Assembly (NCBI GenBank): GCA_947630295.1 | Contig: CANRGZ010000003.1 | Location: forward strand, 1-64,000 | Source: an uncultured Lachnospiraceae bacterium | GTDB taxonomy: Bacteria > Bacillota > Clostridia > Lachnospirales > Lachnospiraceae | Length of the DNA stretch: 64,000 bases | Direction of reading: 5' to 3' | Shown here: piece by piece, positions 5,737 to 64,000 of the stretch | Position numbering within the stretch: position 1 is the stretch's first letter | Layout of the letters: each line of letters opens with the position of its first letter | The notes under the pieces: generated by a model | Seen by the model: only the letters and a program-made list of their open reading frames with translations | Database searches by the model: none | What the model was told of the DNA's origin: nothing | Position numbers and translations under genes: made by a program

Positions 5737-5777
5737 GAAAACCTTAGTCATAATCACTGATTTTCAAATCAAAACAT

Positions 5778-5820
5778 GAAAAAGCCACAATTTTTTCAAA
5801 CAAAAATTGTGGTTTTTTTT
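5778..5820 (+). terminator. Rho-independent terminator after the first dockerin gene
   Basis: A perfect 11-bp stem CCACAATTTTT / AAAAATTGTGG with a tcaaac loop is followed by eight T. Confidence 0.85.
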
Positions 5821-5842
5821 CATGAAATCCAGACCATTTTAA

Positions 5843-5870
5843 TTGAAAAAAAAGGATTTGATGTTATAAT
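5843..5870 (+). promoter_or_regulatory. Sigma-A promoter of the second dockerin gene
   Basis: TTGAAA at 5843-5848, a 16-nt spacer and a perfect TATAAT at 5865-5870. The start codon is 43 nt further on, with an AAAGGGG ribosome binding site. Confidence 0.75.
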
Positions 5871-5912
5871 ACAGTATGTAGAATTACAAACAAAAAAAGA
5901 AAGGGGATAAAT

Positions 5913-10208: not shown

Positions 10209-10243
10209 GTTTTCTGATCAAAACACAATGCAACTATGAAGGA

Positions 10244-10278
10244 GAAGCTCCTGTCCGGCACTGCCGGGCAGGAACTTC
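10244..10278 (+). other. Intercistronic stem-loop between two dockerin genes
   Basis: GAAGCTCCTGTCCGGC and GCCGGGCAGGAACTTC pair over 16 positions (one mismatch, one G-U) with an ACT loop. No T run follows, so it is not a typical terminator. It sits 35 nt after the stop of the giant gene and 27 nt before the next start. It may stabilise or process the shared mRNA. Confidence 0.6.
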
Positions 10279-10304
10279 CCATGAAACGAAAAGGAAGGAC
10301 AGAC

Positions 10305-12134
10305 ATGAAAAAGAAAATTTTTAGCAAATCGCTGGCCGGCGTACTTTCCTTCGCCATGGCCGCCGGCTGCCTGACCTTTGCGCCCATGAGCGTATCTGCG
10401 GATACGGCAGCTGTGCCCAGTCCCGTGCAGGTATATGATTTTTCCCATTCCTTCGAGGAACTGAAAAAACTGGATGCGGGGCTGGAAGTCGTAGAGAATG
10501 CGGCAAAACCGGAGATCGTTCCGGATGACGAGATGGGCAACGTCTTAAAGCTGGGCAAGGCGGTCAACACGGAAAGCCAGGTCTACCAGGAAGGCACCAT
10601 GTATCTGGAGAAGGATGACTCCGAGTATTCCACCATCAACATCACCAATCCCTACAAGGATTCCAAAGACAAACTGGTAGAGTATGGGGATCACGAAGAA
10701 GTAAAACAGAAAAACTGGGAAGGCGTGATGGGCCCTGAGTGGACGACCGGCGTTACCATCAGCTACTGGATCAAGACTTCCGGAAAGAATTCCAACGTTG
10801 TGGGATTCCGCAACAACAAATATCTGGTACAGTCCGATGACTATGCGAAATATCTCTGTACCGTAGACTTTGACAAAGATTACAACTCCCTGACCGATGA
10901 GCAGAGACAGAGCATGGGACAGGACGTTGTCAACTGCGGCGTTTCCTGGGATTCCGACTACTATTTCCAGTACGTCAATGACGATCCCACCGAGCAGGAA
11001 TATACCCCCGGCCTGAAGGGCCCTGTCTATGTAAGGCAGCCTTCCATGGACAAAACACCGGATAATGTAAACAAAGCATTCTGGATGAACAAGTTCTACA
11101 AAGTAGGCTATGTCCAGAGCAAAGACGGAAAAAGCTATGAGCCTTCTTCGGAAAACGGCACCGGCCGTTCCGGCAACTATGCGGATTACTCCAAGTACCC
11201 TACGTTCGGCGACACAGAGGGTTCGGCAGAAGCCAATGGTTCCAAACTCAGATATGGCTGGGCGAAGGGCGAAATGTGGCTGGATTCCACTTCTTCCTTC
11301 TATTTTGAAGGCGACAACAAGATGACGGTACAGGAAAACCCGGCTGGAAGTGAGTACAGGCAGGCACAGGGTATGCAGAACGGCAACGCCTTTTCTGTCA
11401 ACTCCTGGTACGGACAGCAGGCAACCATCGAGGATGCCATCGATTCCGGTTATTACGCAGACAGCCCGGTAACGGTAGAACCTGATAAATGGCATCTGGT
11501 CAGCTGCGTGATCCAGAACGACTGGGTAGAGTATTATCTGGACGGCGCGAAAATCGATATGAAGGGTACCTACAGTTCTTATGGTTCCATTGGAATCGGC
11601 GGCAAGGTTTCCGATCATGAGAAACCCTGGAAGCGTTTCAACAAGGGCGCAGGCAGCCGTTACGGTTATGGCAACAACAAGAACATTATCTACAGAGGCA
11701 CCAACGGCAACTACGTCTGTGAAGTCATCATGGACTGGCTGACTGACGCTTCCACCACAGCCACCATCGGCGGCGGCAACACCGCAGGCGACGGCTACAA
11801 CATGTTCGCGAATACCGATGAGATCGAACTGAAGAACATCGTATTCCACGACGAAATGCTGACAGAAGACCAGATCAAGGTCCTGGCTGAAAACCCGAAA
11901 TACTATGAGAACTGGGGATTTGCACAGGACGGCGATGCAGACGGTGACGGAGATGTAAACGCACAGGATGCGCTTGCAATCTTAAAACATGCGGCAGCGA
12001 TTGAGAAGCTGGATGCTGCAAAGGCTGCTGCGGCAGATGTCAACGGCGATGGTGAATTGTCAGCGGAAGATGCCCTTGGCATTCTCCAGTATGCTGCAAA
12101 AATCATCAGCAGTTTTGATGAACTGAAGAAATAA
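10305..12134 (+). CDS. Secreted LamG-like protein with C-terminal dockerin
   Basis: 609 residues. Start chosen at 10305 because AAGGAAGG lies six bases upstream and the product then begins with a normal signal peptide (MKKKIFSKS, hydrophobic core, VSADTA cleavage). A large ConA/LamG-like module spans about 40-535 with VTISYWIKTSG, WHLVSCVIQNDWVEYYLDG and ELKNIVFHDEMLTEDQIKVL, sharing its plan with each module of the giant protein upstream. Residues about 545-605 are a dockerin with two canonical loops (DADGDGDVNAQDAL, DVNGDGELSAEDAL). No promoter is evident in the 96-nt gap, so it is probably co-transcribed with the giant gene. Confidence 0.8.
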   Translation: MKKKIFSKSLAGVLSFAMAAGCLTFAPMSVSADTAAVPSPVQVYDFSHSFEELKKLDAGLEVVENAAKPEIVPDDEMGNVLKLGKAVNTESQVYQEGTMYLEKDDSEYSTINITNPYKDSKDKLVEYGDHEEVKQKNWEGVMGPEWTTGVTISYWIKTSGKNSNVVGFRNNKYLVQSDDYAKYLCTVDFDKDYNSLTDEQRQSMGQDVVNCGVSWDSDYYFQYVNDDPTEQEYTPGLKGPVYVRQPSMDKTPDNVNKAFWMNKFYKVGYVQSKDGKSYEPSSENGTGRSGNYADYSKYPTFGDTEGSAEANGSKLRYGWAKGEMWLDSTSSFYFEGDNKMTVQENPAGSEYRQAQGMQNGNAFSVNSWYGQQATIEDAIDSGYYADSPVTVEPDKWHLVSCVIQNDWVEYYLDGAKIDMKGTYSSYGSIGIGGKVSDHEKPWKRFNKGAGSRYGYGNNKNIIYRGTNGNYVCEVIMDWLTDASTTATIGGGNTAGDGYNMFANTDEIELKNIVFHDEMLTEDQIKVLAENPKYYENWGFAQDGDADGDGDVNAQDALAILKHAAAIEKLDAAKAAAADVNGDGELSAEDALGILQYAAKIISSFDELKK

Positions 12135-15191: not shown

Positions 15192-15195
15192 CATT

Positions 15196-16617
15196 ATGGG
15201 AAAAGCTGTTTACAATCTGGCGTTTGATTACGGCGCATCCAGCGGCCGTATGATTCTGGGCAAATATGAAGATGGAAAAATTTCCCTGCAGGAACTGCAT
15301 CGTTTTGATAATGAACCGGTGCGGATCGGGAAATACTTTTACTGGGATACCTTTCGCTTATACCATGAGCTGAAGCAGGGTTTGAAAAAGGCGGCGGCAC
15401 TGAAGCTGCCGATTGCGTCCCTGGCCATCGATACCTGGGGCGTGGATTACGGACTGATCGACAAGGAGGGCAATCTCATCGGGATGCCCATCCATTACAG
15501 AGACGACCGTACCATCGGCGTAATCGAAGAAGTGGGAAAGCAGATTCCTTTGGAGGAACTTTACGCCGCCACAGGCATTCAGTTTATGAATTTCAATACG
15601 ATCTTCCAGTTCTATGCGGATCGGAAAATGAGACCGGATATCTACGAAAAGGCAGACAAGGCGTTATTCATGCCGGATTTGCTGAATTATTTCCTGACCG
15701 GAAAAGCGTACAACGAGTACACCATCGCGTCCACGGGACAGCTGCTGGACGCAAAAAAACGTACCTGGGATTTTGATATCATGAAACGGGCAGGCTTACG
15801 CACCGATCTGTGCTGTGATCTGATTGCACCAGGCACAGTGGTGGGAGACCTGACGGAGGAAGTCGTAAAAGAAACCGGATTGGAAGGCGTCAAAGTCATT
15901 GCGGCAGGGAGCCATGATACCGCGTCTGCGGTTGCGGGAACGCCGTTTGAAGATGAAAATGCAGCCTTTTTAAGCTGCGGCACATGGTCGCTTCTGGGTA
16001 TGGAAATCGATGAACCGATTCTGACACAGCAGTCGTATGCGTATAATTATACCAACGAAGGCGGTGTGGAAGGAAAAATCCGTTTTTTGAAAAATATCAA
16101 CGGACTTTGGATCATGCAGAACCTGAAGCGCAACTGGAGCCAGTTTGAGCAGGAGGTATCCTATCCTGATATTATCCGGGCGTCCCGGGCGGCGAAGAAG
16201 CAGGATTATACCATCAATCCCAACGATCCCCGCTTTACCGCGCCTTACAATATGATGCGGGAAGTCGTCGCCTATTGTGAGGAAACGGGACAGGGCAGGC
16301 CGGAGGGCCTGGGCGAGATTGCCATGGCCATTTACAACGGCCTGGCGGAGGAATACAAGACCACCATCCGGAATCTGGAAACCATCACCGGCAGGGCCAT
16401 TTCCTGCATCAATATGATCGGCGGCGGCATTCAGGACGAACTGCTCTGCGAGCTGACGGCAAAGAGCACCGGGAAAAAGGTCATTACGGGACCGGTGGAA
16501 GGCTCGGCGCTGGGCAATATCATTATGCAGCTGAAAAGCCTGGGGGCGGTCTCTTCCCTGCAGGAAGGCCGACAGATCATCAAGCGCAGCTGCACGCAGA
16601 AGGTTTATACGGTTTAA
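15196..16617 (+). CDS. rhaB: Rhamnulokinase (FGGY family)
   Basis: 473 residues. N-terminal ATPase fold LAFDYGASSGRMILG, substrate side IDTWGVDYGLID and MPIHYRDDRT, then the C-terminal half with AGSHDTASAVAGTP, LSCGTWSLLGME and NMIGGGIQDELLCELTA, a set diagnostic of L-rhamnulose kinase. It phosphorylates L-rhamnulose before aldol cleavage to DHAP and lactaldehyde. Start 15196 follows the hprK stop by four bases with GGGGAGG upstream; a longer frame starting inside hprK has no supporting signal. No rhamnose isomerase, aldolase or transporter is in the window. Confidence 0.93.
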   Translation: MGKAVYNLAFDYGASSGRMILGKYEDGKISLQELHRFDNEPVRIGKYFYWDTFRLYHELKQGLKKAAALKLPIASLAIDTWGVDYGLIDKEGNLIGMPIHYRDDRTIGVIEEVGKQIPLEELYAATGIQFMNFNTIFQFYADRKMRPDIYEKADKALFMPDLLNYFLTGKAYNEYTIASTGQLLDAKKRTWDFDIMKRAGLRTDLCCDLIAPGTVVGDLTEEVVKETGLEGVKVIAAGSHDTASAVAGTPFEDENAAFLSCGTWSLLGMEIDEPILTQQSYAYNYTNEGGVEGKIRFLKNINGLWIMQNLKRNWSQFEQEVSYPDIIRASRAAKKQDYTINPNDPRFTAPYNMMREVVAYCEETGQGRPEGLGEIAMAIYNGLAEEYKTTIRNLETITGRAISCINMIGGGIQDELLCELTAKSTGKKVITGPVEGSALGNIIMQLKSLGAVSSLQEGRQIIKRSCTQKVYTV

Positions 16618-36983: not shown

Positions 36984-37013
36984 CGATGCAGGAATGAAAA
37001 CAGAACACAGGAT

Positions 37014-37047
37014 CGGCCGCTCCGGTTACGGAACGGCTGATTTTTTT
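37014..37047 (+). terminator. Rho-independent terminator after aspS
   Basis: CGGCCGcTCCG pairs with CGGAaCGGCTG around GTTA (one mismatch, one wobble), followed by seven T. Confidence 0.8.
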
Positions 37048-37081
37048 ACGGGAAAAGCGTCTGAAATCCTGTGTGAATTGG

Positions 37082-37110
37082 TTGAATTTGCCTTTCGGAT
37101 GAATTATAAT
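37082..37110 (+). promoter_or_regulatory. Sigma-A promoter of the transaldolase-BKACE-GH127 operon
   Basis: TTGAAT at 37082-37087, 17 nt and TATAAT at 37105-37110. The leader of about 90 nt holds a GGTCCG (37123-37128) / CGGACC (37160-37165) pairing before AGGAGG at 37193-37198. Confidence 0.75.
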
Positions 37111-37207
37111 GAAAAATAACAGGGTCCGGATTGTACATGCTGGAAGCAGGCACAGTCCGCGGACCGTTTCAGAACTAAAAAAAATACTTTTCAGGAGGAA
37201 TCAATGC

Positions 37208-38257
37208 ATGGATAAATCAAGTTATTTTCATCGTGTCAGCGCGCAGACGGCCACCAGATTCTGGATCAATAACGTGACCAGGGAAGAGGCGGATATGGCC
37301 ATAGAAGCCGGCGCCGTAGGCTGTACCCAGAACCCTTCTTATGTATGGAAGATGCTTTCCCATGAAACCGAAAGCGCATATGCCACGGATATTTTAAAGG
37401 ATATATTAAAAGAAACCAAAGACGCCAACGAGGCCCAGGCGGCGCTGCAGCGTACCCTGGTGGGCAATGTGGCCAAACATTTCCTGCCCATGTATGAGGA
37501 AACCCACGGCGCCTGGGGGTACGTCAGCATCCAGGGCAATCCTTTCATGGAAACCACGGAAGATATTATCCGTTTTGCGGAATACAATCGGGAGGCCGGC
37601 CCGAATATCATGGCGAAGATCCCCGTAACGGAAGACGGATTGAAAGCCATCGAATACTGCGCTTCCAAACGGATCCCCATCAACGCCACAGAGGTTATGG
37701 CCGTAAGACAGGCACTGGACGTCTGCGAGGTCTATGAGAAAGCCACCAAAGGCATGAAGGATCCCGCGCCCATCTATTTTTCCCATATCACGGGCATCTA
37801 CGATGAGTATCTGCAGAATTACGTAAAGGAAAATCATGTGGATATCAGCCCGGATGCACTGTGGCAGGCGGGCATTGCCGCGGCAAAGAAGGTATATCAG
37901 ATCGTCAATGACAAACGCTATCCGGTAGGCTTTATCGGCGGCGGCGCCAGAGGCCTGCATCATTTTACCGAGATGGTAGGGGCCAAGGCCTGCATCACCA
38001 TTAACTGGAAGGGCGCTGCGGAGGACCTGCTGAAGCAGAATCCGCCGGTGGTACAGCGTTTCTTCATGCCGGTTCCCACAGCGGTACTGGATGAGCTGTA
38101 TGAAAAACTGCCGGATTTCCGACGCGGCTACGACGTACACGGCATTACGCCGCCGGAATACGAGCAGTTCGGTCCGGTGGTACTGTTCAGATCCAGCTTC
38201 GAGGATGCATGGACGAAGGCAAACGCGTATATCAAGGAACAAATCGAGCAGCTGTAA
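37208..38257 (+). CDS. Divergent transaldolase-family protein
   Basis: 349 residues with the transaldolase TIM-barrel plan: strand 1 TRFWINNVT, the TQNPSYVWKML segment (family: TTNPS), Schiff-base Lys137 in NIMAKIPVTEDGL, INATEVMAVRQAL, and GGGARGLHHFTEMVGAKACITI (family: ASFR..). By eye, two usual active-site residues are changed: the strand-1 Asp is Asn (N21/N22), and the phosphate-contacting Arg after the SxxxG segment is Ile197. The enzyme is therefore likely an aldolase-type Schiff-base catalyst with an unusual substrate, not central-metabolism transaldolase. ATG 37208 has AGGAGG nine bases upstream. First gene of a tight operon. Confidence 0.75.
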   Translation: MDKSSYFHRVSAQTATRFWINNVTREEADMAIEAGAVGCTQNPSYVWKMLSHETESAYATDILKDILKETKDANEAQAALQRTLVGNVAKHFLPMYEETHGAWGYVSIQGNPFMETTEDIIRFAEYNREAGPNIMAKIPVTEDGLKAIEYCASKRIPINATEVMAVRQALDVCEVYEKATKGMKDPAPIYFSHITGIYDEYLQNYVKENHVDISPDALWQAGIAAAKKVYQIVNDKRYPVGFIGGGARGLHHFTEMVGAKACITINWKGAAEDLLKQNPPVVQRFFMPVPTAVLDELYEKLPDFRRGYDVHGITPPEYEQFGPVVLFRSSFEDAWTKANAYIKEQIEQL

Positions 38258-38275
38258 GCAAGGAAGGTGGAATAC

Positions 38276-38947
38276 ATGAAGCTTTGTACGTTACATACAA
38301 CCGATAAATTTATGGAAATGATGAGCGATCCCTTTACCAAGCCTTTTCTGGCGGATAACCCGGACATTGAGGGCATGGATATTGCGGACAGCTCCCTGAT
38401 CGCGGAGACCCAGGAGGCAGGTTACGCCACCCCTTCCGTGGCCCGGAGAATGTATAATTATATGATGTGTGCGGTGGACGCAGGGGCAGACGGCATCCTG
38501 GTGACCTGTACCTCTGTCAATACCGTGACCAAAGCCATCCGGCCCCTGATTCCCATTCCGGTGGTGGGCATCGAAGAACCGGTGGCAGAACGGGCCGTGG
38601 AAATCGGCGGAAAGATCGGTATCTTATCTTCTCTGGCTACCAGCGCGAAACCGGTGGAAAATTCCATTCTGGAAGCCGCAGCGGCAGCCGGCAAAAAAGT
38701 AGAAACCTCTATCTGCGTGGCAGACGGCGCTTTTGAAGCATTAATGCGCGGCGACCGTCCCCTGCATGACGAGAAGGTGCGTATTGCGCTGGATAAATTG
38801 GTGAAGGAAGTGGACGTGGTGGTATTTGCCCAGATGTCCATGGCGCTGGTGGAGCATCCGGACTATCCGATCGAAGTGCTGAAATTCGGCAGACTCAGCT
38901 ATGACGCAATCAAGAAGAAAATGATTGCACATAAAAATCAGAAGTAA
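38276..38947 (+). CDS. Aspartate/glutamate racemase superfamily protein with one catalytic Cys
   Basis: 223 residues, complete for the superfamily. The first half has DGILVTCTSVNT with Cys78 where racemases carry the first catalytic cysteine. In the second half the place of the usual GCTH motif reads VVVFAQMSMALVEHP, with no cysteine. Two-Cys racemases need both residues, so this is probably an isomerase, lyase or decarboxylase variant. ATG 38276 has AAGGAAGG nine bases upstream, preferred over a GTG at 38267. It lies 18 nt after the transaldolase-like gene. Confidence 0.75.
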   Translation: MKLCTLHTTDKFMEMMSDPFTKPFLADNPDIEGMDIADSSLIAETQEAGYATPSVARRMYNYMMCAVDAGADGILVTCTSVNTVTKAIRPLIPIPVVGIEEPVAERAVEIGGKIGILSSLATSAKPVENSILEAAAAAGKKVETSICVADGAFEALMRGDRPLHDEKVRIALDKLVKEVDVVVFAQMSMALVEHPDYPIEVLKFGRLSYDAIKKKMIAHKNQK

Positions 38948-38959
38948 TGGGAGGAAATT

Positions 38960-39829
38960 ATGAGAAAGGTCATTATTTCAGTGGCGCCGGTTGGGCCGAA
39001 GACGCCGATCGTTCCGGAAGAAGTGGCCCAGGACGTGATCAAATGCGTGGAAGAGGGCGCGGCCATCTGCCATCTGCACAGCAGAGATGAAAACGGAAAG
39101 CTGATTCCCGATACTTCCATGATGGTGGATACCTTTGAACGGATCCGGGAAAAGACGGACGTGGTGGTACAGGCTTCCACCGGCGGCGTATCGGATATGA
39201 GTATTGAGGAGCGCTGCAATCCGCTGAAATACTGGAGAGTGGAAAGCGCGTCTTTAAACGGCGGCACCATGAATTTCGGCGAATCGATTTATGTCAACTC
39301 TTTTGAGGACATCCGTTACTGCGCGAAGGAGTGCTACGACAGAGATATACTGCCGGAAATCGAAGTATTCGATATCGGCATGATCAACAATATCAAGCTG
39401 GTTTCGGAGGAGCAGATGTTCCATCATCCCATCTGGTACAATCTGGTCTTCGGACATAAGGGAGGCATGCCCGCTACCATTGATGCGCTGATCGCTTTCA
39501 GTTCCTTCGTTCCGAAGGGACAGATCTGGGGCGTGACCCATTTCGACCGCATGGACTGGCGGTTCATCGGCGTGGCCATCGCTTTAGGCGCCTCTGTGGT
39601 CCGTGTGGGCTTTGAGGACAGCGACAAGCTGGATGCCCATACCAGCGCGCAGTACAACTGGGAGCTGATCCGGCAGCTGGCTTCCATTATCCGGCAGTTC
39701 GGTCTGGAGACGGCAACCCCTGAGGAAGCAAGGAAAATCTTAAATCTTTCCCCGGTACAGCCTTTTGAGAAGGGCAGCAGCCGGAAACACAAATTCGACA
39801 ATGTAGAAGAGGTAGATTTGTATGAATAA
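38960..39829 (+). CDS. BKACE family beta-keto acid cleavage enzyme (DUF849)
   Basis: 289 residues. N-terminal VIISVAPVGPKTPIVPEEVAQD, zinc ligands in AAICHLHSRDENGKL (His38, His40), then STGGVSDMSIEERCNPL, EVFDIGMINNIKLV and VRVGFEDSDKLDAHTSAQYN. BKACE enzymes are Zn-dependent and condense a beta-keto acid with acetyl-CoA to give acetoacetate and a new CoA ester; 3-keto-5-aminohexanoate cleavage in lysine fermentation is the best-known case, but no lysine genes are near. Substrate is unknown. GGGAGG lies upstream; the 3' end overlaps the next gene by eight bases. Confidence 0.88.
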   Translation: MRKVIISVAPVGPKTPIVPEEVAQDVIKCVEEGAAICHLHSRDENGKLIPDTSMMVDTFERIREKTDVVVQASTGGVSDMSIEERCNPLKYWRVESASLNGGTMNFGESIYVNSFEDIRYCAKECYDRDILPEIEVFDIGMINNIKLVSEEQMFHHPIWYNLVFGHKGGMPATIDALIAFSSFVPKGQIWGVTHFDRMDWRFIGVAIALGASVVRVGFEDSDKLDAHTSAQYNWELIRQLASIIRQFGLETATPEEARKILNLSPVQPFEKGSSRKHKFDNVEEVDLYE

Positions 39830-41591
39830 GCAGGTACAGATTCCTGATACCCTCAATCTGGCGGACCGCGCCCATATCGCTTTGAACGCCATGATCGGCG
39901 TGGCGGATGAAGATTACGAATATATTCCGTTCTTCATGGGATTTTTCCCGGCGAAACCGTCATGGATGCAGCACGGCAACTGGGATTACGGTTCCAGCCA
40001 CGGCCGGCTCATCGACGCCATGACGCTGGTGCGGGAAATGACCGGCACGGAGGAAGGCAGAGATATTGAGCAGCATTACAAAGAGAATTTCCTGACCTTT
40101 TTCCATAAGGACGATTTGAGCTACCGCAGAAATACCTTTACCCAGGATCTGATCGATTTTTACGGCACCCGCTTTGAAGAAGGGGCTTCCATGATCGATC
40201 AGCGGGCGGTCATTCTGGGACTGGGCACCTGGTTTATCGATACCGGGGATGAGAAGATCAAAGCATATGCGGACCGGCATGTGGCGGCGCTGAAGCGCAT
40301 CGCCCGTAAGGAGCGGGATTCCTGGTATTATCCTGCCAGTGAATATACGGATCACGGCTGGCCTTCCTTTGACGCGGTACATACCAGACTTTGTCCGGAT
40401 CCCTGCGCCATGTGGGGCCGTCAGGTCAATCCTTTGATGCGCTGGCATGAGGCCACCGGCAACCGGGACGCTTTCGAGCTTTCGGAAAATTTTGTGGCAA
40501 ATATTATTTACCGCAGCGGCGCGTTTTTGCCGGACGGCAGCTTCAATGCGGGCCTGGGATTCCGCAACGGCCATTTCCATACGAGGATGGGGACCTTAGC
40601 TTCCATCGCCCGCTTTGCTTCCTTTACCCATGACGCGGATATCTTAAACTGGGTGAAGAAGTGCTATGACTGGGGACTGACCCAGTGTACCAGCTTCGGA
40701 TGGACCCCGGGGGATTTGCATGATCAGGGCTATGAGCATGAAACCTGTACGCTGGTGGATGCCATCGGCACGGCCATCACCCTGGCTAAGAACGGTTATA
40801 CCGAATACTGGGGCGTGGCGGAACGGTTCTTACGGAACCATCTGACGGAAGCGCAGCTGCTGGATACTTCCTGGATCCAGCAGGGAGATTCCAAGGAAAA
40901 TGACGTTCCCCACGAGCTCACTTATTATAAAGTGGCAGACCGGCTGCGGGGCGCGTTTGCCGGATATTCTGCCCCCAATGATTTCGTTTACAGCGGCAAT
41001 AAGGGCAGAGGGCACATCATGGATGTGCAGACCTGCTGTGTGGCCAGCGGCGCAAGAGGCCTCTACAACGGCTGGAACAATATCGTCACCAAAGAGCGGA
41101 ACCGGGTCAGCGTCAACATGCATTTCAACAAGGCGTCCAAATGGTGCGACGTTTACAGCTATCTGCCTCACGAAGGCAAGGTGGCGGTCATCGCGAAAGA
41201 AGAGATCGAAGAACTGCTGATTCGTGTGCCGGAGTATGTACCCCATACGACGGTGGAGGTGAAGCGCAGTTTTGCCGCGGAGGAACAGACTCTCCGGGGC
41301 AAGGATCAGCTGTTTTCCGCCATTGTACTTCCCTGGGTGAGAAAGTGCTTTGTGAAGATTGAAAACGTCAGACCCGGCGAGCGGGTGGAGCTTTCCTTCC
41401 CCATCATCTTCCGGAAAACTACGGAAACCGCCGTGGACGATACTTTTGAAGTAGAGTGGGCCGGGGATACTGTCATCAATATCACACCCGGCGGCACCTA
41501 TTATCCGCTGTACAAGCATAAAAAGCTGCTGGAGCATGCACCGATGACGGAGCAGCCGCTGTACATGGGAAGCGGGAAGAATTATGACTGA
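39822..41591 (+). CDS. GH127-like zinc glycosidase, cytoplasmic
   Basis: 589 residues, mostly an (alpha/alpha)6-type helical domain with a beta-rich C-terminus (about 430-580). Zinc-site residues of beta-L-arabinofuranosidase HypBA1 appear kept: Glu307 and Cys309 in YEHETCTLVDAIGT, and Cys405-Cys406 in VQTCCVASGARGLYNGW. These match the E-x-C and C-C ligands that hold the nucleophilic cysteine in family GH127. There is no signal peptide, so it acts on imported sugars. Overall similarity to classical GH127 seems low, and a neighbouring family or a non-glycosidase is possible. It overlaps both neighbours by eight bases, so expression is strongly coupled. Confidence 0.65.
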   Translation: MNKQVQIPDTLNLADRAHIALNAMIGVADEDYEYIPFFMGFFPAKPSWMQHGNWDYGSSHGRLIDAMTLVREMTGTEEGRDIEQHYKENFLTFFHKDDLSYRRNTFTQDLIDFYGTRFEEGASMIDQRAVILGLGTWFIDTGDEKIKAYADRHVAALKRIARKERDSWYYPASEYTDHGWPSFDAVHTRLCPDPCAMWGRQVNPLMRWHEATGNRDAFELSENFVANIIYRSGAFLPDGSFNAGLGFRNGHFHTRMGTLASIARFASFTHDADILNWVKKCYDWGLTQCTSFGWTPGDLHDQGYEHETCTLVDAIGTAITLAKNGYTEYWGVAERFLRNHLTEAQLLDTSWIQQGDSKENDVPHELTYYKVADRLRGAFAGYSAPNDFVYSGNKGRGHIMDVQTCCVASGARGLYNGWNNIVTKERNRVSVNMHFNKASKWCDVYSYLPHEGKVAVIAKEEIEELLIRVPEYVPHTTVEVKRSFAAEEQTLRGKDQLFSAIVLPWVRKCFVKIENVRPGERVELSFPIIFRKTTETAVDDTFEVEWAGDTVINITPGGTYYPLYKHKKLLEHAPMTEQPLYMGSGKNYD

Positions 41592-42360
41592 TGCGGTGAT
41601 CTTTGATTCCCACGCGCATTATGACGACGCTTCCTTTGGGGCGGACAGAGACCAGACGTTAAGGGACTGCCTGCAGCAGAACGTGGGGTACATCGTCAAC
41701 GTGGGATCGAATCTGCGCAGCCTGACCTGGGTACCGTATCTGTGTGAAACTTACGGGCATGTGTACGGCGCGGTGGGGATCCATCCGGATGATACCAGGT
41801 TTTTGAACGAAGTCATTTTTGCGCGGATGCGCAGCCTTTGCGAAGGAGAAAAAATCGTGGCCGTCGGGGAGATCGGTCTGGACTATTACTGGAACGCCTC
41901 TCCGAAGGAAGTACAGAAGCACTGGTTTGCGCGGCAAATGGAACTGGCCGCAGAGCGGCATCTGCCGGTGATCATTCACAGCAGAGAAGCGGCGCAGGAT
42001 ACCTTTGATATGATTATGGCAGCCCATCTGCCCTGCCGGGGCGTGATCCACTGTTATTCCGGCAGCGTGGAAATGGCACTGGATTATGTAAACAAAGGCT
42101 TCCTGATCGGTATCGGCGGCGTACTGACCTTCAAAAACGGCAGGAAACTGAAGGAGGTGGCGGCGGCGGTTCCGTTGGAATCCATTCTGCTGGAAACGGA
42201 CTGTCCGTATCTGGCGCCGGCGCCGTTTCGTGGGAAACGCAATGCATCCGGGCTGATCCGCTATGTGGCGGAAGAACTGGCGCGGATCAAACAGTGCAGT
42301 TATGAAACTGTGCTGGAATGTACCTGCCGGAATGCGAAGCGGTTGTTTCACATCGAATAA
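41584..42360 (+). CDS. tatD: TatD family metal-dependent hydrolase
   Basis: 258 residues. TIM-barrel amidohydrolase fold with FDSHAHYDD (metal His), AVGIHPDD, VGEIGLDYYWN, LPVIIHSREA, GVIHCYSG and LLETDCPYLAPAPFRGKRN. TatD proteins are 3'-5' DNA exonucleases or related hydrolases. It starts inside the 3' end of the GH127-like gene and is followed by the operon terminator. Being a housekeeping family, it may only share transcription with the four genes before it. Confidence 0.93.
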   Translation: MTDAVIFDSHAHYDDASFGADRDQTLRDCLQQNVGYIVNVGSNLRSLTWVPYLCETYGHVYGAVGIHPDDTRFLNEVIFARMRSLCEGEKIVAVGEIGLDYYWNASPKEVQKHWFARQMELAAERHLPVIIHSREAAQDTFDMIMAAHLPCRGVIHCYSGSVEMALDYVNKGFLIGIGGVLTFKNGRKLKEVAAAVPLESILLETDCPYLAPAPFRGKRNASGLIRYVAEELARIKQCSYETVLECTCRNAKRLFHIE

Positions 42361-42380
42361 AACAGAATAAAAGCAGTTTA

Positions 42381-42410
42381 AAGGAGCATGAGATTTCATG
42401 CTCCTTTTTT
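42381..42410 (+). terminator. Rho-independent terminator of the transaldolase-tatD operon
   Basis: AAGGAGCATGA pairs perfectly with TCATGCTCCTT around gatt and runs into six T. Confidence 0.88.
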
Positions 42411-52883: not shown

Positions 52884-52926
52884 GAGGAGAAAGGCGGCAG
52901 CTGCGCTCCCCGTGCGCGCGTGCCGC
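52882..52926 (+). repeat. Dispersed structured repeat, copy 4 (deletion derivative)
   Basis: AGGAGGAGAAAGGC is followed at once by GGCAGCTGCGCTCCCC and GTGCGCGCGTGCC. The whole first hairpin of the full repeat is missing; the second remains (GGCA...GCGC...GCGC...TGCC). It lies between prfC and the GH28 gene, like copy 2 directly after a stop codon. Confidence 0.7.
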
Positions 52927-52952
52927 TACATATGATAGGAGGCTTTTTCAGG

Positions 52953-54194
52953 ATGGATGTAAAGATTACGGATTATCAGAATTACGTTTTTAAGGACGAT
53001 TGGACGGAATGTTTCGAAAAGGCAGTGGAGGAGCTGAAAGAGGCCGGGGGAGGCACTTTGCGGGTAACGCCCGGAGTTTACAAATGCGCAAGCATCTGCC
53101 TGACCTCCAATATGACGCTGTATCTGGAAAAGGGCAGTGAGATTTCATTTATGGATGATTTTTCCCGCTATCCGGTGATCCGCGGCAGCTTTGAAGGCGT
53201 TTTCTGCGATATGTACCAGCCGTTTATTTACGCAAAGGACGAGGCGTCCGTATCCGTGGAAGGAAAGGGCGTCATTCGGGGCAACGGACAGAAGTGGTGG
53301 AAGGCGCTGCGGGACGGGGAACTTTCCGTTATGCGGCCCCGGCTGCTGTATTTTGAGTCCTGTTCCGAGGTTCTGATCAAGGATGTGACGTTGATCGATT
53401 CCCCCTGCTGGACCGTACATCCCTACTGGTGCGATTCGGTGCGGGTCATCGGCATCAAGATCAAAAATCCGGCGGACAGCCCCAATACCGACGGCATCAA
53501 TCCGGACAGCTGCAGAAATGTACTGATCAAGGGCTGCCAGATCGATGTGGGAGACGACTGTATCGCCATCAAATCCGGGGTGGAGCAAAACGACACTTTA
53601 AGATCCTGCGAGGATATTCTGATCGAGGACTGCCATATGGTACACGGCCACGGCGGCGTGGTTTTAGGCAGCGAGTCTTCCGGCGGCATTGCCCATGTGA
53701 CGGTGCGAAACTGCGTCTTTGAGGACACGGACCGGGGCATCCGCTACAAAACCCGCAGAAGGCGGGGCGGCGTGGTCAGCGATATCCGCTTTGAACACAT
53801 CCGGATGAAAAACGTCATGTGTCCGTTTGTATTTAATATGTTTTATTTCTGCGGCAAGCTGGGGAGAGAACCATGGGTTTCCGATCCCGCGCCGGCGCCG
53901 GTGGATGAAGGGACGCCTTCTTTAAGCGATATTGTGATTTCCCACGTGCAGGTGGAGGACGCCAGGTCCTGCGCCGGTATCTTTGCGGGACTGCCGGAGC
54001 AGAAGATCAGCGGCATTACCATGGAAGACTGCAGCGTTTCTATGCGGCAGGACGCTGTGCCGGAGATTCCTGCGATGATGGCCGGCATCGACCCCATGTC
54101 CGCTGCCGGATTTGTATTTAAAAACACGGAGCAGGTGACGATGAAACAGGTGGACCTGGAGAATGTCATCGGAGAAAAAGTCGTAAGACTTTAA
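52953..54194 (+). CDS. GH28 polygalacturonase-like enzyme, cytoplasmic
   Basis: 413 residues, right-handed beta-helix. GH28 catalytic signatures are all present: NTDGINPD (178-185), GDDCIAIKSG (Asp201-Asp202), HGHGGVVLGSE (231-241) and RYKT (264-267). It cleaves galacturonate-containing pectin chains or oligomers. No signal peptide, so it probably trims imported oligogalacturonides. ATG 52953 has AGGAGG nine bases upstream, just behind repeat copy 4. It lacks its usual pectin-utilisation neighbours here. Confidence 0.9.
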   Translation: MDVKITDYQNYVFKDDWTECFEKAVEELKEAGGGTLRVTPGVYKCASICLTSNMTLYLEKGSEISFMDDFSRYPVIRGSFEGVFCDMYQPFIYAKDEASVSVEGKGVIRGNGQKWWKALRDGELSVMRPRLLYFESCSEVLIKDVTLIDSPCWTVHPYWCDSVRVIGIKIKNPADSPNTDGINPDSCRNVLIKGCQIDVGDDCIAIKSGVEQNDTLRSCEDILIEDCHMVHGHGGVVLGSESSGGIAHVTVRNCVFEDTDRGIRYKTRRRRGGVVSDIRFEHIRMKNVMCPFVFNMFYFCGKLGREPWVSDPAPAPVDEGTPSLSDIVISHVQVEDARSCAGIFAGLPEQKISGITMEDCSVSMRQDAVPEIPAMMAGIDPMSAAGFVFKNTEQVTMKQVDLENVIGEKVVRL

Positions 54195-57968: not shown

Positions 57969-58007
57969 AAAACAGGTATCGGCTGAGCGGGTCGATACCT
58001 GTTTTCG
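57969..58007. terminator. Bidirectional terminator
   Basis: AAAACAGGTATCG and CGATACCTGTTTT form a perfect 13-bp stem with T runs on both strands. It separates the flavodiiron operon from the convergent restriction-modification locus. Confidence 0.88.
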
Positions 58008-58056
58008 TTATCGGCATATAAAGCGAGCTTTGAAGGCATGGTATTTGTGACATCAA

Positions 58057-59901
58057 TCAGGTTACTTTCCATATCGTTTCATCGCCGCAGATATTGCGAA
58101 TTTTCAGACGAAGTGGTTTCTTTTCACAGCGAATTTGTCCGTTCCAAAATTCTTTTGTCTTAACGCCATTCACTATAACATAGCCATTCTTGTCAATTTT
58201 GATTTCATTGTCGGAGTGCCACTTGCCGTTATCGTATGTACAGTCAACGCTTAATAATTCAATAAGTTCCAAACCGTCTTCACTGATTTGAATGGGTTTG
58301 TATGGTTTACTTGCTGAAGAATTAAGGAAAGCCTTTTGATTAAACTCGGATATCTTTGAAAGTACACGATCGCTCATAAATTTATCAATAAAAACAGTGT
58401 ATCCCTCAAACAAGTCTCCATGGTTTTTCTTTGTATGAAATTCTGCATAATCCTCAATGATAATATCGTCAAGAATCTCTTTCAGGTCGCGCAGCTCTAT
58501 TTCGATTGTTGTGCTGTCGTCTTTTCTGATAAATTGCATGAGTTCATCTTGGTCTATAATGTCTATGTAATAAATGATTACCTTTTTTATATTGTTGCTA
58601 AGGTCGGGTATTGCCTGATGAATAATGCGGGTCATCATCACTTTGTCGAGCAGCTTAGAAGCACTATCCATCAGATTCGGCACATAAACAGGAACTGTCC
58701 CAAGCTTGCTGTCGGAGACAGCGCCTTCCCAAAAGGAATCGAGAGAATCCTCGTTTTTCAGACCGGGAATCAATGATTTAATTTTATCCATTGTTTGAAC
58801 GGGGTTACGATAAAGCTGTACGCCGTCTTTAATCTCCAGAATGTCAAATTCTGCGCTATTTGAGACTAGTCTGTCGCGGGTGGTTTGAATGGAGTTGAGT
58901 CCGATGTCGCAATGGATAAAGCGGCGTCCGAGCTTTGCGGCAACGGCAGCAGTGACACCACTGCCTCCGAAAAAGTCGGCTATGAGCATATCTTTGTTTG
59001 AAGATGCTTTAATGATTCTTTCCAGTAGTTTTTCTGATTTTTGTGTGGTATAATCTACATTTTCTCCCGGGTATCGTGCAGCTCGTTGTATATCTATCCA
59101 CCAATCTTCAGGTACTTTTCCGCTTTCATTAAGTACAATTGTCTCAAAATCCATTCCTCCCTTCCCGATTACATTACGGTTTGCTCTGTCAAGACTCCCT
59201 TCTGCATACGGTATTCTTATCTCATCTTTGTTAAAAATATAATTTTCACTTTTTGAAAAACGGCAAATAGTATCATGTTTTTTAGGAAAATCAAATCCGA
59301 CGTTTGATACAGCTGTATAACACCAAATAATTTCATTTCTAAAATTTTCCTCTCCGAAAATTTCGTCAAGCAAAATTTTTACATAATGTACAATGTGCCA
59401 ATCCAAATGAACATAAATGGATGCCGTTTCATTCATAACGGACTTGATGGCCATAAGGTTTTCGTACATCCAGTTCAGGTACTTTTCTTTGTCCCAAACG
59501 TCACCGTACATTTTTTCTTCAAAGGCCTTCAGATCATCAATATCAAGCTCCTGTTCAGCCTGAGCAATGGCTTCCGCCACTTTCGGGTTGCGGCGGATAT
59601 AAACCTTCTTTGCGTAATCCGCACCACTGGCAAATGGTGGGTCGATATACACAAGGTCGACCTGAATGCCTTTTTCTTTTAAATACGCGCAGGCAGAAAC
59701 GCATTCGCCACGGATAACCATATTACCGTCTGCATTTTCTCCTACGGTTTCCTGCTTTTCCATTTCATAAAGTGGCATACCGCGTTGGAACGTCTTTGAA
59801 ACGTCATCAGCACCTTTGTATTTCAATATTCTGTTAAAGTTTCCGAGTACAGCCTGCCCTTCAATCGGTTCGGGTGTAAACGGTACATATTTTATTGGCA
59901 T
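58057..59901 (-). CDS. mod: Type III modification methyltransferase (Mod)
   Basis: 614 residues. Catalytic motif IV DPPF at 87-90 precedes the S-adenosylmethionine motif ADFFGGSG at 308-315, the beta-class order of N6-adenine Mod subunits, with the target-recognition part between them. A C-terminal region of about 250 residues likely contacts Res. AAAGGAG upstream; three-base gap from the DUF4393 gene. Base composition is clearly more AT-rich than the rest of the window. Confidence 0.9.
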   Translation of the reverse strand: MPIKYVPFTPEPIEGQAVLGNFNRILKYKGADDVSKTFQRGMPLYEMEKQETVGENADGNMVIRGECVSACAYLKEKGIQVDLVYIDPPFASGADYAKKVYIRRNPKVAEAIAQAEQELDIDDLKAFEEKMYGDVWDKEKYLNWMYENLMAIKSVMNETASIYVHLDWHIVHYVKILLDEIFGEENFRNEIIWCYTAVSNVGFDFPKKHDTICRFSKSENYIFNKDEIRIPYAEGSLDRANRNVIGKGGMDFETIVLNESGKVPEDWWIDIQRAARYPGENVDYTTQKSEKLLERIIKASSNKDMLIADFFGGSGVTAAVAAKLGRRFIHCDIGLNSIQTTRDRLVSNSAEFDILEIKDGVQLYRNPVQTMDKIKSLIPGLKNEDSLDSFWEGAVSDSKLGTVPVYVPNLMDSASKLLDKVMMTRIIHQAIPDLSNNIKKVIIYYIDIIDQDELMQFIRKDDSTTIEIELRDLKEILDDIIIEDYAEFHTKKNHGDLFEGYTVFIDKFMSDRVLSKISEFNQKAFLNSSASKPYKPIQISEDGLELIELLSVDCTYDNGKWHSDNEIKIDKNGYVIVNGVKTKEFWNGQIRCEKKPLRLKIRNICGDETIWKVT

Positions 59902-59904
59902 AGA

Positions 59905-60699
59905 TTATATCTCCTTTCCCAAACATACTTTAATAAAGCATTTGCCGTAATCATTAACAAGTAGTACTTTTTCATTAATTTTAATCTTAAATGGTCTACC
60001 ATAAGATTTGTATAAAGTACTCCGGGACTGTACATACGGATGATCTTTAAATGAGTTATAATCGTATCCATCTATCTGCCCGTCAAATATATTTAAAACA
60101 CCTAATCTTAATAAATTGGTTATAGATGTAGAAATATTAAATGGATCTGATAAAGATGCTAATTCCTTTATAAAATATGTAGGCATAGAATTTGAATATA
60201 CTTTACTTATATTTTTAATTGAAAACTTAATTTCAGCACAAGCAAGTTGACTTGATTCAACAAATTTCTGTAAGACTTTAGCGTCTAAAGGACTCATCTG
60301 TTTTATAGCATCAACGAAAGATGGCAACGCTTGGATTACAGTTCTTGTATCCATAGCGGAAACTAACAAATTTTCGTACATTTCGCGTAGTTCTTTTTCG
60401 TCATATGTATATTTTAAAGCCTCTAAAGTAGGACCGGCAATCATTGTTGGAGGAATTTGTAAATTCTCAGGAGGGATACATTTAGTCTTTTCTTTTAAAT
60501 CATTTTCAAATGCCTCTAAATTGTATTTAAATGTTAAATTGGCTTTTTTAATAGGATATAATACAACATTGTTAAAAAAGCCGACCACGGTGGACAATAC
60601 TCCGTCAGTTTGCTTGGCGGTTTCGGGAAAAGATTGTTGAATCGCATCGGAAATCGGTTCAATTACATCAGGCAATAAAGAATTTCTGCTTTCGTTCAT
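59905..60699 (-). CDS. DUF4393 (Abi-alpha) family protein inside the type III R-M locus
   Basis: 264 residues. N-terminal helix LPDVIEPISDAIQQSFPET, a possible membrane-proximal stretch TVVGFFNNVVLYPIKKANL, then YNLEAFENDLKEKTKCIPPENLQIPP and AGPTLEALKYTYDEKELREMYENLL, the typical face of DUF4393, a family linked by name to abortive infection. The rest is helical with a beta C-terminus. Its ATG overlaps the res stop by one base (TAATG) and mod follows within three bases, so it is translated as part of the R-M operon. The most AT-rich gene in the window. Confidence 0.8.
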   Translation of the reverse strand: MNESRNSLLPDVIEPISDAIQQSFPETAKQTDGVLSTVVGFFNNVVLYPIKKANLTFKYNLEAFENDLKEKTKCIPPENLQIPPTMIAGPTLEALKYTYDEKELREMYENLLVSAMDTRTVIQALPSFVDAIKQMSPLDAKVLQKFVESSQLACAEIKFSIKNISKVYSNSMPTYFIKELASLSDPFNISTSITNLLRLGVLNIFDGQIDGYDYNSFKDHPYVQSRSTLYKSYGRPFKIKINEKVLLVNDYGKCFIKVCLGKEI

Positions 60700-63569
60700 T
60701 ATAATTCCTCCTCAAATATTTTTTTGAGTTTCTTATGTATCATCATAATTCGTTCACTCACTGACAATGTGTCCTCCAAATATAAATAGTCAAAACGTTC
60801 ATAGCCAAAGATTTTGTTGTTCTGCGTTAAGAATTCCGTTTCCATAAAGGTTTTCTTATCTTTGAAAGACGTGTCATTTGCGTAGATGCTGCCTTTCGTT
60901 TCCACAATAATCACATTGTGGATCACTCCATCTTTTCGTCGGAGAATTAGAAAGTCTGGAGTATAGATACCAATATAGTTCCATTTTCCGTTGTCTCGCC
61001 GATAACACTTGATTTTGAATTCAGTCATGTCTCGATCTCCGTTATAATAAACTTCCAATCCAAGCTTTTCGATTTCGTCAAAAGACAGGATTTCTTTTAA
61101 AAATGTTTTTTCAAAACTACTGTCTGTGCGATAAGGCAGATAATGGAACGATCGGTCTTTATTTTTGTGAGAAGATGTTTGCGTTCGCAAGTCTGCAGCT
61201 ATTGCAGTGTTACCCGTTTCCTCAAGTAGATGAATAGTCATTTCAATTTTAGGATCAATCTTCAGTTTTCCATTATCATCTTTGATGATGTTTTCTACCA
61301 CGTTTTGCGAAGGATAATAATCCTGGGGCTTGTCGGTATAAACTTCAGAGGTAAAGTTTGCAATTTTCAAAAGATTGGCTGATTCAGGTATCAGATCTTC
61401 AACTGTGGTAAAGTCTTGCTTATCACAGAAAGCCTTGCGAATATTGGCGTCAACTAACTTTCGATTGTATTTTGAACTGTAGTAATACGTATCACCTTTT
61501 TTGTAAGTGATTATTTTATAGACGGATTTAAGAGAATCTTCGAATTTCATCAGATCATCGACAGAGGGTGAGCCGAAGCCGCCTTTCATAATACCATAAA
61601 TCCACGAGAGGAAAGTCGTCGGTTCGTTACCATATTCCATGTCGTCAATACGGATAGTTGTTTTACTTTCGTTCATTGAAAGGTCAGTGGTTTTGATAAT
61701 ACTGTCTGCAAGACGGGCATTATTGGTCGAAGCCGCAATATATCTTGCAGGGTCGGCTTTGTCAATCGTGAGTGTATCATAATTAATTTTAAGCTGAAAG
61801 AAATCGACTTTTGGCAGCTTCAAATATGTTGTGCGATCGTAACGTTTCAGGGGAGTTTTGCTGTTGTCGGCAGATGAAAACTCTTTGAGCGTTATGTGAT
61901 GCTGCCTTTTAAGCTGCATATTTAATTTATCTGCGTTGCTTTCGTTTAGATAAATGAGCGCTGTTTCTGGGCTGTATTTCACAACCTGACGCAGACAGCG
62001 GCAAGAAGTTTGTAAGACCATATTCGTTGGACAGTCTCCTTCCTGGGAAAGGATAATACCTGTAAGGCTGCGGCAATCCCAGCCCTCTTTACCGATCTGC
62101 ACCAGAAGGACAATGCGAATTTGGGAAACAGAGGTATCTAAAATATCAAATTGCATTTGGCTGTCAGCAGGCATTTTATATTGCTTATTGCCCTTATGAA
62201 ATTTAAGAATCGTGTTTTTGCCGAGACCATACTCTGCAACAATATGGGCTACCAAAGGATAAACAACTTCTTCTAATTTTTCGATTGTACCGCAGTAAAT
62301 ACCGAGTTTAGCAGTCAATCCGCCTGCATAGACAGTATCTTTATATGTATCAAGAAATTCCCGGACGCCTTGTTCAATAATTAAACTGCTGTTGGCAATA
62401 TCAGCAATTTTAACAACGGGACACTTCAAGAAGTTCCCCACACCGTTAATCAGGGGATAGTAATATACAATATTCGTAATCTCAGCTGTTCCTACAGAAA
62501 GGGAGTCTGCCACCTTAATTTTTTCCAACTTTTCAAGATAAGGTGTACCTGAAAAACCAATAACGGAGTTAATGGTATTATTCTGCACCCATTTTGTAAC
62601 AACGGCACGGAGTTTTATTTCGTCACTGACAGCATGATGTACTTCGTCAATGAAAATTGAGAGCGATGGTAATTTGCCGATAAGGTTACGCAGTTCATTG
62701 GCCTGTCTGTCTTTTTCATCATCACTCTCTTCAAACATATGAATTTGACCTTGTTTCTCCTGAATACGGTCAAGAATTACTTTTTCAGCGTTTGTAACAG
62801 CTACTAAACCAAACAACTCAGAAAGTGGCTGGTGATTTGCAATCTTCTGGACATTTGGATTTTTAGTTTTGTTTGATTTTTTTGCGGTCTTTCCCTGATC
62901 AAGCACTTCAAAGGAAATCATACGCTTTATGTCCGTTGCTGCAGGCTCCGGGATAACCCAGGCAGGATTAAAATTCTGTATTGTTTTAAGACTTGGAACA
63001 ACGGAAGATTTTAGTCCGGATGGAGCAAAGATAATAAAATTATGTGCAAATGCAGGGTTTGTTGGTTCATTATAGGCAAAATATAAATCAAGATAGATGA
63101 ATGCCGCCATCAAATACGTCTTTCCTGCACCCATTGGTAAGCTAAACAGATAATCCGTATAGGAAATGCCATAAAATGCATTCCGAAAGAAGCTGTCATA
63201 GTCAATATTTGACAGATCTTTCTTAATATGCTTTTCAAGTTTTTCAGAAACCTGTTCGCCGGTATTATTAGTTAATCGAGAATATTCGAACAATGCGGCT
63301 GCCGCTGTATTGTTCTTTAAGTATTTGCGCGTTGCCGTAGATAATTCTATGCCATCTAAATCAATAGAGTTGAAGCAACCGTTTTCGAACAATACCTCCA
63401 GTGGCTTGCATTCACAGCCAATTTTAAGAAACAGATAAACCTTGATAGCCTCAATCTGGGCATCTCGCATTTGTCCCGTTTTCTCTATATATTCAATTAT
63501 ATTTCGGACTGTACATTGCGAAGAAGTATACCACTCTTTGCACTTGTTTTCTATCATTTTATAGAACAT
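60699..63569 (-). CDS. res: Type III restriction subunit (Res), helicase-nuclease
   Basis: 956 residues, full size. Superfamily 2 helicase motifs: Walker A LPMGAGKTYL (Lys150), DEVHH near residue 310, GFSGTPYLEKL (motif III region) and VLQTSCRCLRQ (motif VI). A PD-(D/E)xK nuclease closes it: YTPDFLILRRKDG then IIVETKGS near residues 890-915. GGAGG nine bases before ATG. It is the first of the three R-M genes, 34 nt after the DUF4143 ATPase gene. Confidence 0.92.
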   Translation of the reverse strand: MFYKMIENKCKEWYTSSQCTVRNIIEYIEKTGQMRDAQIEAIKVYLFLKIGCECKPLEVLFENGCFNSIDLDGIELSTATRKYLKNNTAAAALFEYSRLTNNTGEQVSEKLEKHIKKDLSNIDYDSFFRNAFYGISYTDYLFSLPMGAGKTYLMAAFIYLDLYFAYNEPTNPAFAHNFIIFAPSGLKSSVVPSLKTIQNFNPAWVIPEPAATDIKRMISFEVLDQGKTAKKSNKTKNPNVQKIANHQPLSELFGLVAVTNAEKVILDRIQEKQGQIHMFEESDDEKDRQANELRNLIGKLPSLSIFIDEVHHAVSDEIKLRAVVTKWVQNNTINSVIGFSGTPYLEKLEKIKVADSLSVGTAEITNIVYYYPLINGVGNFLKCPVVKIADIANSSLIIEQGVREFLDTYKDTVYAGGLTAKLGIYCGTIEKLEEVVYPLVAHIVAEYGLGKNTILKFHKGNKQYKMPADSQMQFDILDTSVSQIRIVLLVQIGKEGWDCRSLTGIILSQEGDCPTNMVLQTSCRCLRQVVKYSPETALIYLNESNADKLNMQLKRQHHITLKEFSSADNSKTPLKRYDRTTYLKLPKVDFFQLKINYDTLTIDKADPARYIAASTNNARLADSIIKTTDLSMNESKTTIRIDDMEYGNEPTTFLSWIYGIMKGGFGSPSVDDLMKFEDSLKSVYKIITYKKGDTYYYSSKYNRKLVDANIRKAFCDKQDFTTVEDLIPESANLLKIANFTSEVYTDKPQDYYPSQNVVENIIKDDNGKLKIDPKIEMTIHLLEETGNTAIAADLRTQTSSHKNKDRSFHYLPYRTDSSFEKTFLKEILSFDEIEKLGLEVYYNGDRDMTEFKIKCYRRDNGKWNYIGIYTPDFLILRRKDGVIHNVIIVETKGSIYANDTSFKDKKTFMETEFLTQNNKIFGYERFDYLYLEDTLSVSERIMMIHKKLKKIFEEEL

Positions 63570-63603
63570 ACGGTGCCTCCATAAATTGCAATTCTTATAA
63601 AAT

Positions 63604-64000
63604 TTAATTTTTCATTGTACCATTCGCAAGATCGGCTGCTGCAAAAGAAATAAAATAAAAAGGCAGAGTAAGCAGCTTTTGCTCCGGATGATAGCCGTAA
63701 TTGTTTTTGGAAACCTTAATGGCACATGCAAATTTGTTATGATTTGCGAATTTCTCAAGGGAGTTGAGTGTCCCTTTGCCTTTTTTTACATCGATCGGAT
63801 AGAGTTTGTTATCCGATTCAATGATAAATTCCAGTTCGGCAGATGCTTTTCCTCGCCAGTAGAATAGTTTATGACCTTTTGCAATCAGCTCATTTGCTAC
63901 AAAGTTTTCAAAGAAAATGCCAGACAGAGTGTTTTCCCTCTCACTCGATATGAACGAAGCTGCATTGATTCCGCTTTGGTAGGAGAACATTCCGATATCC
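63604..64000 (-). CDS. DUF4143-type AAA ATPase, C-terminal part only (cut by window edge)
   Basis: 131 codons remain in frame up to the right edge (the first full residues read DIGMFSYQ), so the first visible Met at 63990 is internal. The sequence is the C-terminal DUF4143 domain of the ATPases often annotated as AAA with DUF4143: LSGIFFENFVANELIAKGHKLFYWRGK, AELEFIIES and LYPIDVKKGKGTLNSLEKF, the last two resembling a PD-(D/E)xK-like nuclease core. The N-terminal ATPase half lies outside. AT-rich like the R-M genes. Confidence 0.75.
   Translation of the reverse strand, partial: DIGMFSYQSGINAASFISSERENTLSGIFFENFVANELIAKGHKLFYWRGKASAELEFIIESDNKLYPIDVKKGKGTLNSLEKFANHNKFACAIKVSKNNYGYHPEQKLLTLPFYFISFAAADLANGTMKN

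Follow-up and report, generated by a model that had tools for sequence, protein, structure and literature searches.

Two descriptions in the literature bear on the use of sugar acids and unphosphorylated sugars by enzymes of the kind described here. The catabolism of 2-deoxyribonate is a genetic precedent for the action of a beta-keto acid cleavage enzyme (BKACE) on a sugar acid (PMC6365646), and in transaldolase TalB the substitution R181E together with F178Y gives a higher affinity for unphosphorylated glyceraldehyde (PMC3962226). The operon investigated here encodes a transaldolase-like protein (TAL), an aspartate/glutamate-racemase-fold enzyme (RAC), a BKACE, a remote glycoside-hydrolase-like protein (GH) and a tatD-family hydrolase. 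It lies in positions 1 to 64,000 of contig CANRGZ010000003.1 from the assembly GCA_947630295.1 of an uncultured Lachnospiraceae bacterium, and this whole 64,000-nucleotide stretch is referred to as the window. TAL, RAC and BKACE form a conserved module, and we consider the chances to be even that the operon provides the cytoplasmic steps of a route for sugar-acid catabolism which is built on a widespread TAL-RAC(-BKACE) module and acts on an unphosphorylated acid. The original prediction for this DNA was made without knowledge of a described pathway that has this gene set, and literature searches yielded none; no publication was found that joins BKACE with a transaldolase, and combinations with racemase, RuBisCO-like protein and TRAP transporter likewise returned no such pathway.

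The alignment of TAL was scanned against 84,980 genomes, which yielded 141 relatives, and 80 of these loci were analysed. TAL loci were found in Bacillota, Spirochaetes, Bacteroidetes, Planctomycetes, Verrucomicrobia, Chloroflexi, Acidobacteria, KSB1, Sumerlaeia, Calditrichaeota and Atribacterota. Of the 80 loci, 26 have RAC at a distance of at most ∼10 kb from TAL, where ∼0.06 were expected, 18 have BKACE that near (∼0.2 expected) and 11 have both. The expectations were derived from a phylum background of 21 RAC-like and 75 BKACE copies per 199 random genomes, and the significance of the excess is overstated by the kinship among the 80 loci. On the TAL tree, the state of having RAC nearby switches 13 times and that of having BKACE nearby 10 times, while the independent pairs are too few for a sign test of BKACE against RAC. 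In 26 TAL genomes, picked partly for a nearby RAC or BKACE, 12 of the 13 BKACE copies were within ∼7 kb of a TAL. The linkage of TAL, RAC and BKACE therefore recurs across phyla and across the TAL tree, and the three genes constitute a conserved module. All four families had been proposed to act together; the co-occurrence far above chance applies to these three, and GH was found near TAL only in the genus of the window. From this pattern, the first three genes of the operon form the module and the fourth is a local addition.

TAL (37208–38257, plus strand, 349 aa) matches PF00923 with an E value of 3e-24 (86 bits against a cut-off of 27), and the Foldseek matches of its AF2 model (pLDDT 97.3) are transaldolases (E 2e-16). 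Residues were compared in 68 members of the subfamily and in nine more distant relatives serving as outgroups; the alignment was computed, and the numbering that relates TAL to TalB is in part what we take it to be. The Schiff-base Lys137 is present in 68 of 68 members, which together with the fold agrees with the Schiff-base transaldolase-like enzyme originally proposed, catalysis itself being predicted. Gln109, Thr161 and Asn42 are also conserved, Glu162, directly after the catalytic Thr, is invariant, and Arg248 and Trp267 are further residues of the subfamily. The catalytic Asp17 of TalB is replaced by Asn21 in all 68 members (Asp in seven of nine outgroups) and the phosphate-binding Arg181 by Ile197, again in all 68 (Arg in nine of nine outgroups). 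Since Arg181 is lost and Asp17 replaced, and given the behaviour of the F178Y/R181E variant of TalB, the substrate of TAL is likely to be without the usual phosphate. The window TAL scored under every NCBIfam transaldolase cut-off (best 75 bits against 367), the best NCBIfam E value among the 68 members being 8e-27. Judged from these sequences, TAL is classed as a new transaldolase subfamily.

TAL could alternatively be an ordinary transaldolase, operating in a variant of the non-oxidative pentose-phosphate pathway that uses a split transketolase, with RAC and BKACE as accessory genes. Such a role would agree with the fold and with the clusters of split transketolase genes (TktN/TktC) found in 12–15 TAL loci, as well as with the 400-aa cousins of TAL, which adjoin RpiB-like, FBA-like and split transketolase genes. 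However, these cousins keep the Arg and mostly the Asp, whereas both replacements are invariant in TAL; the window TAL scores far below all NCBIfam transaldolase cut-offs and the window operon is without a transketolase. We regard this explanation as quite improbable.

RAC (38276–38947, plus strand) matches PF01177 with an E value of 1e-18. In the 28 aligned RACs from TAL loci, as far as their residues are listed, a single catalytic Cys sits in a motif of the TC(S/T)S type, which is TCTS in the window, and the second racemase Cys is absent; its position, in an AQxSM-type motif (GQISL in locus L101), is occupied by Gln. The protein is thus the one-Cys racemase-fold enzyme that had been claimed. 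In the related arylmalonate decarboxylase (AMDase) it depends on these two positions whether decarboxylation or racemisation takes place (PMC4996985), and the single Cys makes a role in enolisation, as tautomerase, isomerase or decarboxylase, more likely for RAC than racemisation. Leaving aside its own genus and the sister lineage, the RAC nearest to that of the window (47%; locus L152, 3748–4461) adjoins genes for an MttB-family methyltransferase, a lactonase-like protein and an alcohol-dehydrogenase-like protein.

The identification of BKACE (38960–39829, plus strand) was borne out by its match to PF05853 (E 3e-71, 240 bits against a cut-off of 24.8) and by retention of the zinc ligands H, H and E and of the Arg-Glu-Asp motif, from which its activity is predicted. 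It scored below the cut-off of NCBIfam NF052387 for 3-keto-5-aminohexanoate cleavage enzyme (Kce), with 224.5 against 382 bits. Canonical BKACEs have Tyr at the position where the divergent BsfD has Phe (PMC12871164). Loss of this catalytic Tyr was considered as a sign of new chemistry and rejected; Phe occupies the position in every TAL-linked BKACE, but it also does so in 12 of 20 BKACEs drawn from random Bacillota genomes (L162–L181).

The neighbours of TAL, for some of which the labels were judged by eye, point to sugar acids as the substrate, and it is from these genes that a sugar-acid substrate is proposed. Among regulators and transporters, GntR was present at 24 loci, TRAP DctM at 18, TRAP DctP at 15, MFS at 12 and TTT at seven. 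The enzymes, besides the split transketolase, were a tartrate-dehydrogenase-like protein and an HpaI-type aldolase (nine loci each), class II ketose aldolase (eight), 2-hydroxyacid dehydrogenase (seven), an Ldh2-like protein (six) and DUF1537 kinase (five), with SMP-30 lactonase also represented.

In two Clostridia lineages (L159, 7518–19411, and L160, 390–10731) a TRAP-RAC-BKACE cluster runs into a bacterial microcompartment (BMC) locus, in which genes for an acylating aldehyde dehydrogenase and a BMC shell protein (BMC-T) come after BKACE. TAL is on the same contig in both, at 20656 in L159, which additionally encodes a class II aldolase, PduL, EutN, a lactaldehyde-reductase-like alcohol dehydrogenase and GntR. 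These loci resemble PVM-like or MIC microcompartments (PMC8156839). The module might accordingly release a small aldehyde whose oxidation would give acyl-CoA and acyl-phosphate, as happens in those microcompartments, with TAL as the aldehyde-releasing aldolase and BKACE feeding the same acyl-CoA pool. The acylating aldehyde dehydrogenase and shell genes that follow BKACE are consistent with this, but they are confined to two rumen or gut lineages, none of these genes is carried by the window operon and L159 already has a class II aldolase, and the explanation is improbable. The L159 locus also encodes a CoA-disulfide-reductase-like protein; by eye, part of this protein resembles the ∼165 extra C-terminal residues of a BKACE at another locus (L063, 8638–9939), an extension in which Pfam finds no domain.

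GH (39822–41591, plus strand, 589 aa) has no Pfam match, GH127 included, the best GH127 value being 0.004, for a relative. The top 21 PDB matches of its AF2 model, which was made from ten sequences (pLDDT 73), were all GH127/GH146 in Foldseek (E 4e-14 to 3e-9, the next match being 4e-5). VIA-align ranked other (alpha/alpha)6 barrels first, with no GH127/GH146 chain among the 50 matches listed, which says nothing against the clan. A zinc motif, E307-x-C309 and C405-C406, persists in relatives with as little as 34% identity and is that of GH127/GH146, in which Cys3-Glu is arranged as E-x-C ... CC (PMC10850190). From the Foldseek matches and the zinc motif, GH is assigned as a predicted remote GH127/GH146-clan (GH-P) protein. 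The zinc-type GH127-like protein of the original prediction is thereby supported, its activity being predicted.

GH adjoins TAL only in the genus of the window, three genomes of which carry it intact, and in the sister lineage (L056/L057) TAL-RAC-BKACE is followed directly by tatD. Either the genus of the window acquired GH between BKACE and tatD or the sister lineage lost it; gain is favoured because GH is absent beside TAL everywhere else. GH was rejected as a genome-level partner of TAL, with one weak match in 50 TAL genomes; G122, G195 and G225, all of one genus, carry both GH and TAL on separate contigs. The proposal that a glycosidase feeds the pathway could consequently apply at most to the genus of the window, GH not being near TAL elsewhere. 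GH may even be a passenger of unrelated function, inserted into a TAL-RAC-BKACE-tatD unit of which the core alone is functional, and this would be compatible with a sugar-acid route. The unit without GH in the sister lineage and the scarcity of matches in TAL genomes fit a passenger, but the gene is intact and overlaps both neighbours translationally in the three genomes of the genus, and we consider a passenger rather unlikely.

Relatives of GH share 60–64% identity in other Bacillota and 47% on Streptomyces plasmids, and they have pectin glycosidases as neighbours, with GH28, GH78, GH42-like, GH29-like, GH43-like and GH106-like genes (names ending in '-like' were given by eye). On the Streptomyces plasmids (L007, 9449–13713) the GH homologue is divergent from genes for an alcohol dehydrogenase, a RuBisCO-like protein and a DUF1537 kinase, with two GH28 genes adjacent, and this locus is a candidate branched-sugar cluster. 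These surroundings, together with the predicted fold and the zinc motif of GH, would suit a route for rare sugars of the pectin rhamnogalacturonan-II, for example aceric acid or apiose, freed by GH and degraded by RAC, TAL and BKACE; a GH28 gene and an FGGY-family sugar kinase gene are also present within the window. As one GH127 member, BT1003, acts as an aceric acid hydrolase (PMC10850190), such a route is kept open as a possible reading for the genus of the window. Yet GH is unlinked to TAL, RAC and BKACE outside that genus and a glycosidase is missing from the neighbourhood of most TAL loci, which makes rhamnogalacturonan-II a very doubtful explanation of the operon.

The five genes are all on the plus strand and fill the interval between the terminator of aspS and a second strong terminator, and the operon is real. 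The upstream terminator (37010–37050, plus strand; −22.4 kcal/mol, z −4.6) belongs to the hisS-aspS genes and sets the operon apart; the downstream rho-independent terminator (42380–42407, plus strand; −18.3 kcal/mol, z −5.2) consists of a 12-bp hairpin and a U tract. Both hairpins are real, with no shuffled sequence folding equally well. A promoter-like site, TTGAAT-17-TATAAT (37082–37110, plus strand), has 10 of 12 consensus matches, and five such sites were seen in the region where 5.4 are expected by chance, which is no excess; a promoter at 37082 is plausible, not proven. TAL starts at 37208, with AGGAGGA at 37192 and relatives beginning at the same point, and not at the open reading frame start at 37109, which overlaps the promoter-like site. 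RAC starts at 38276, with AAGGAAGG. BKACE and GH overlap at 39822–39829, and GH overlaps at 41584–41591 with tatD (41584–42360, plus strand; PF01026), a housekeeping gene co-transcribed with the operon. The single transcription unit, the overlapping genes and the strong terminator originally described were all confirmed, with tatD added to the unit, and the 'good promoter' was upheld in its consensus match, though not by the frequency of sites of this kind nearby. Near-identical loci (L054 and L055) are from rabbit-gut ('Lapin') assemblies.

For the route as a whole we infer the sugar-acid substrate, the order of the steps and every reaction. RAC would enolise the acid, by tautomerisation, isomerisation or decarboxylation, and would not racemise it. 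TAL, acting on unphosphorylated substrates, would form a Schiff base between Lys137 and the resulting keto compound, from which a short ketol unit would be cleaved or transferred. BKACE would use acetyl-CoA to turn a beta-keto acid arising in the pathway into acetoacetate and an acyl-CoA, and in the genus of the window only, the added, predicted GH127/146-clan enzyme may free a sugar from a pectin-type glycoside. Several observations weigh against this reading. Over half of the 80 loci, many of them truncated, have no RAC within 10 kb, and the window operon itself encodes no transporter, dehydrogenase or kinase. The neighbours of TAL vary by lineage (PTS with class II aldolase, TRAP, TTT, MFS or microcompartment genes), which leaves room for more than one substrate of TAL and RAC, and the linkage to a PTS suggests that the intermediates are phosphorylated in certain hosts. 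More tentatively, and with the balance somewhat against it, TAL-RAC may be the core of an undescribed cross-phylum sugar-acid pathway in which the reaction of TAL, on an unphosphorylated acid, is not a transaldolation, Glu162 perhaps replacing Asp, and RAC is its tautomerase or decarboxylase.

Elsewhere in the window, the GH28 (polygalacturonase family) gene at 52920–54194 and the FGGY-family kinase gene at 15193–16617 fit a pectin-using host. Three consecutive large and probably secreted proteins are encoded at 3649–12134; two have type I dockerins and one has LamG and 3-keto-disaccharide hydrolase-like domains. The G+C content falls from ∼0.51 to 0.36–0.39 at 58000–64000, and the minus-strand open reading frames at 58057–63569 resemble, by eye, a restriction-modification or mobile island.

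The TAL subfamily spans about eleven phyla (141 loci), frequently in linkage with RAC, BKACE and transporters for organic acids, and the function of one member would annotate the whole subfamily. TAL could show how the transaldolase fold operates without the catalytic Asp, and in gut and rumen bacteria the module may reveal the use of an overlooked plant-derived acid.

Compared with known systems, TAL shares with TalB and FSA (PF00923) the fold, the Schiff-base Lys, the Asn of the TNP motif, a Gln as in FSA, the Thr of the water relay and one phosphate-site Arg (the R228 equivalent), and differs in Asn21 for Asp17, Ile197 for Arg181 and the new invariant Glu162 and Trp267. The 6-deoxy-6-sulfofructose transaldolase (Sulfo-TAL) pathway of gut Firmicutes is a precedent within the transaldolase family for an unphosphorylated acidic hexose analogue; to our knowledge it is without RAC and BKACE. 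Those Sulfo-TAL transaldolases whose structures have been solved (8bc2, 8bc3) have shorter chains than TAL and only weak similarity to it. RAC has in common with the AMDase and Asp/Glu racemase superfamily the fold family, one catalytic Cys and TRAP/TTT neighbours, and its TC(S/T)S motif resembles the G74-T75-S76 region of AMDase. By motif, however, the Cys of RAC is at the first site and not the second, which is Gln, and C188 and Gly74 of AMDase are absent, while the two-Cys Asp/Glu and hydantoin racemases have the second catalytic Cys that RAC lacks. GH shares the E-x-C and CC zinc motif with HypBA1, BT1003 and BT0349 of clan GH-P, its best Foldseek matches, but is only ∼12% identical to them and below the Pfam cut-off. 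Kce of lysine fermentation is the nearest solved structure to BKACE by sequence (2y7d, E 2e-35), with the same zinc and catalytic residues and different gene neighbours. The oxidative catabolism of 2-deoxyribonate, unlike the window operon, has a short-chain dehydrogenase/reductase (SDR) and a lactonase and is without TAL or RAC; in it, BKACE is the enzyme assigned to split a beta-keto sugar acid, giving an acyl-CoA and acetoacetate (PMC6365646).

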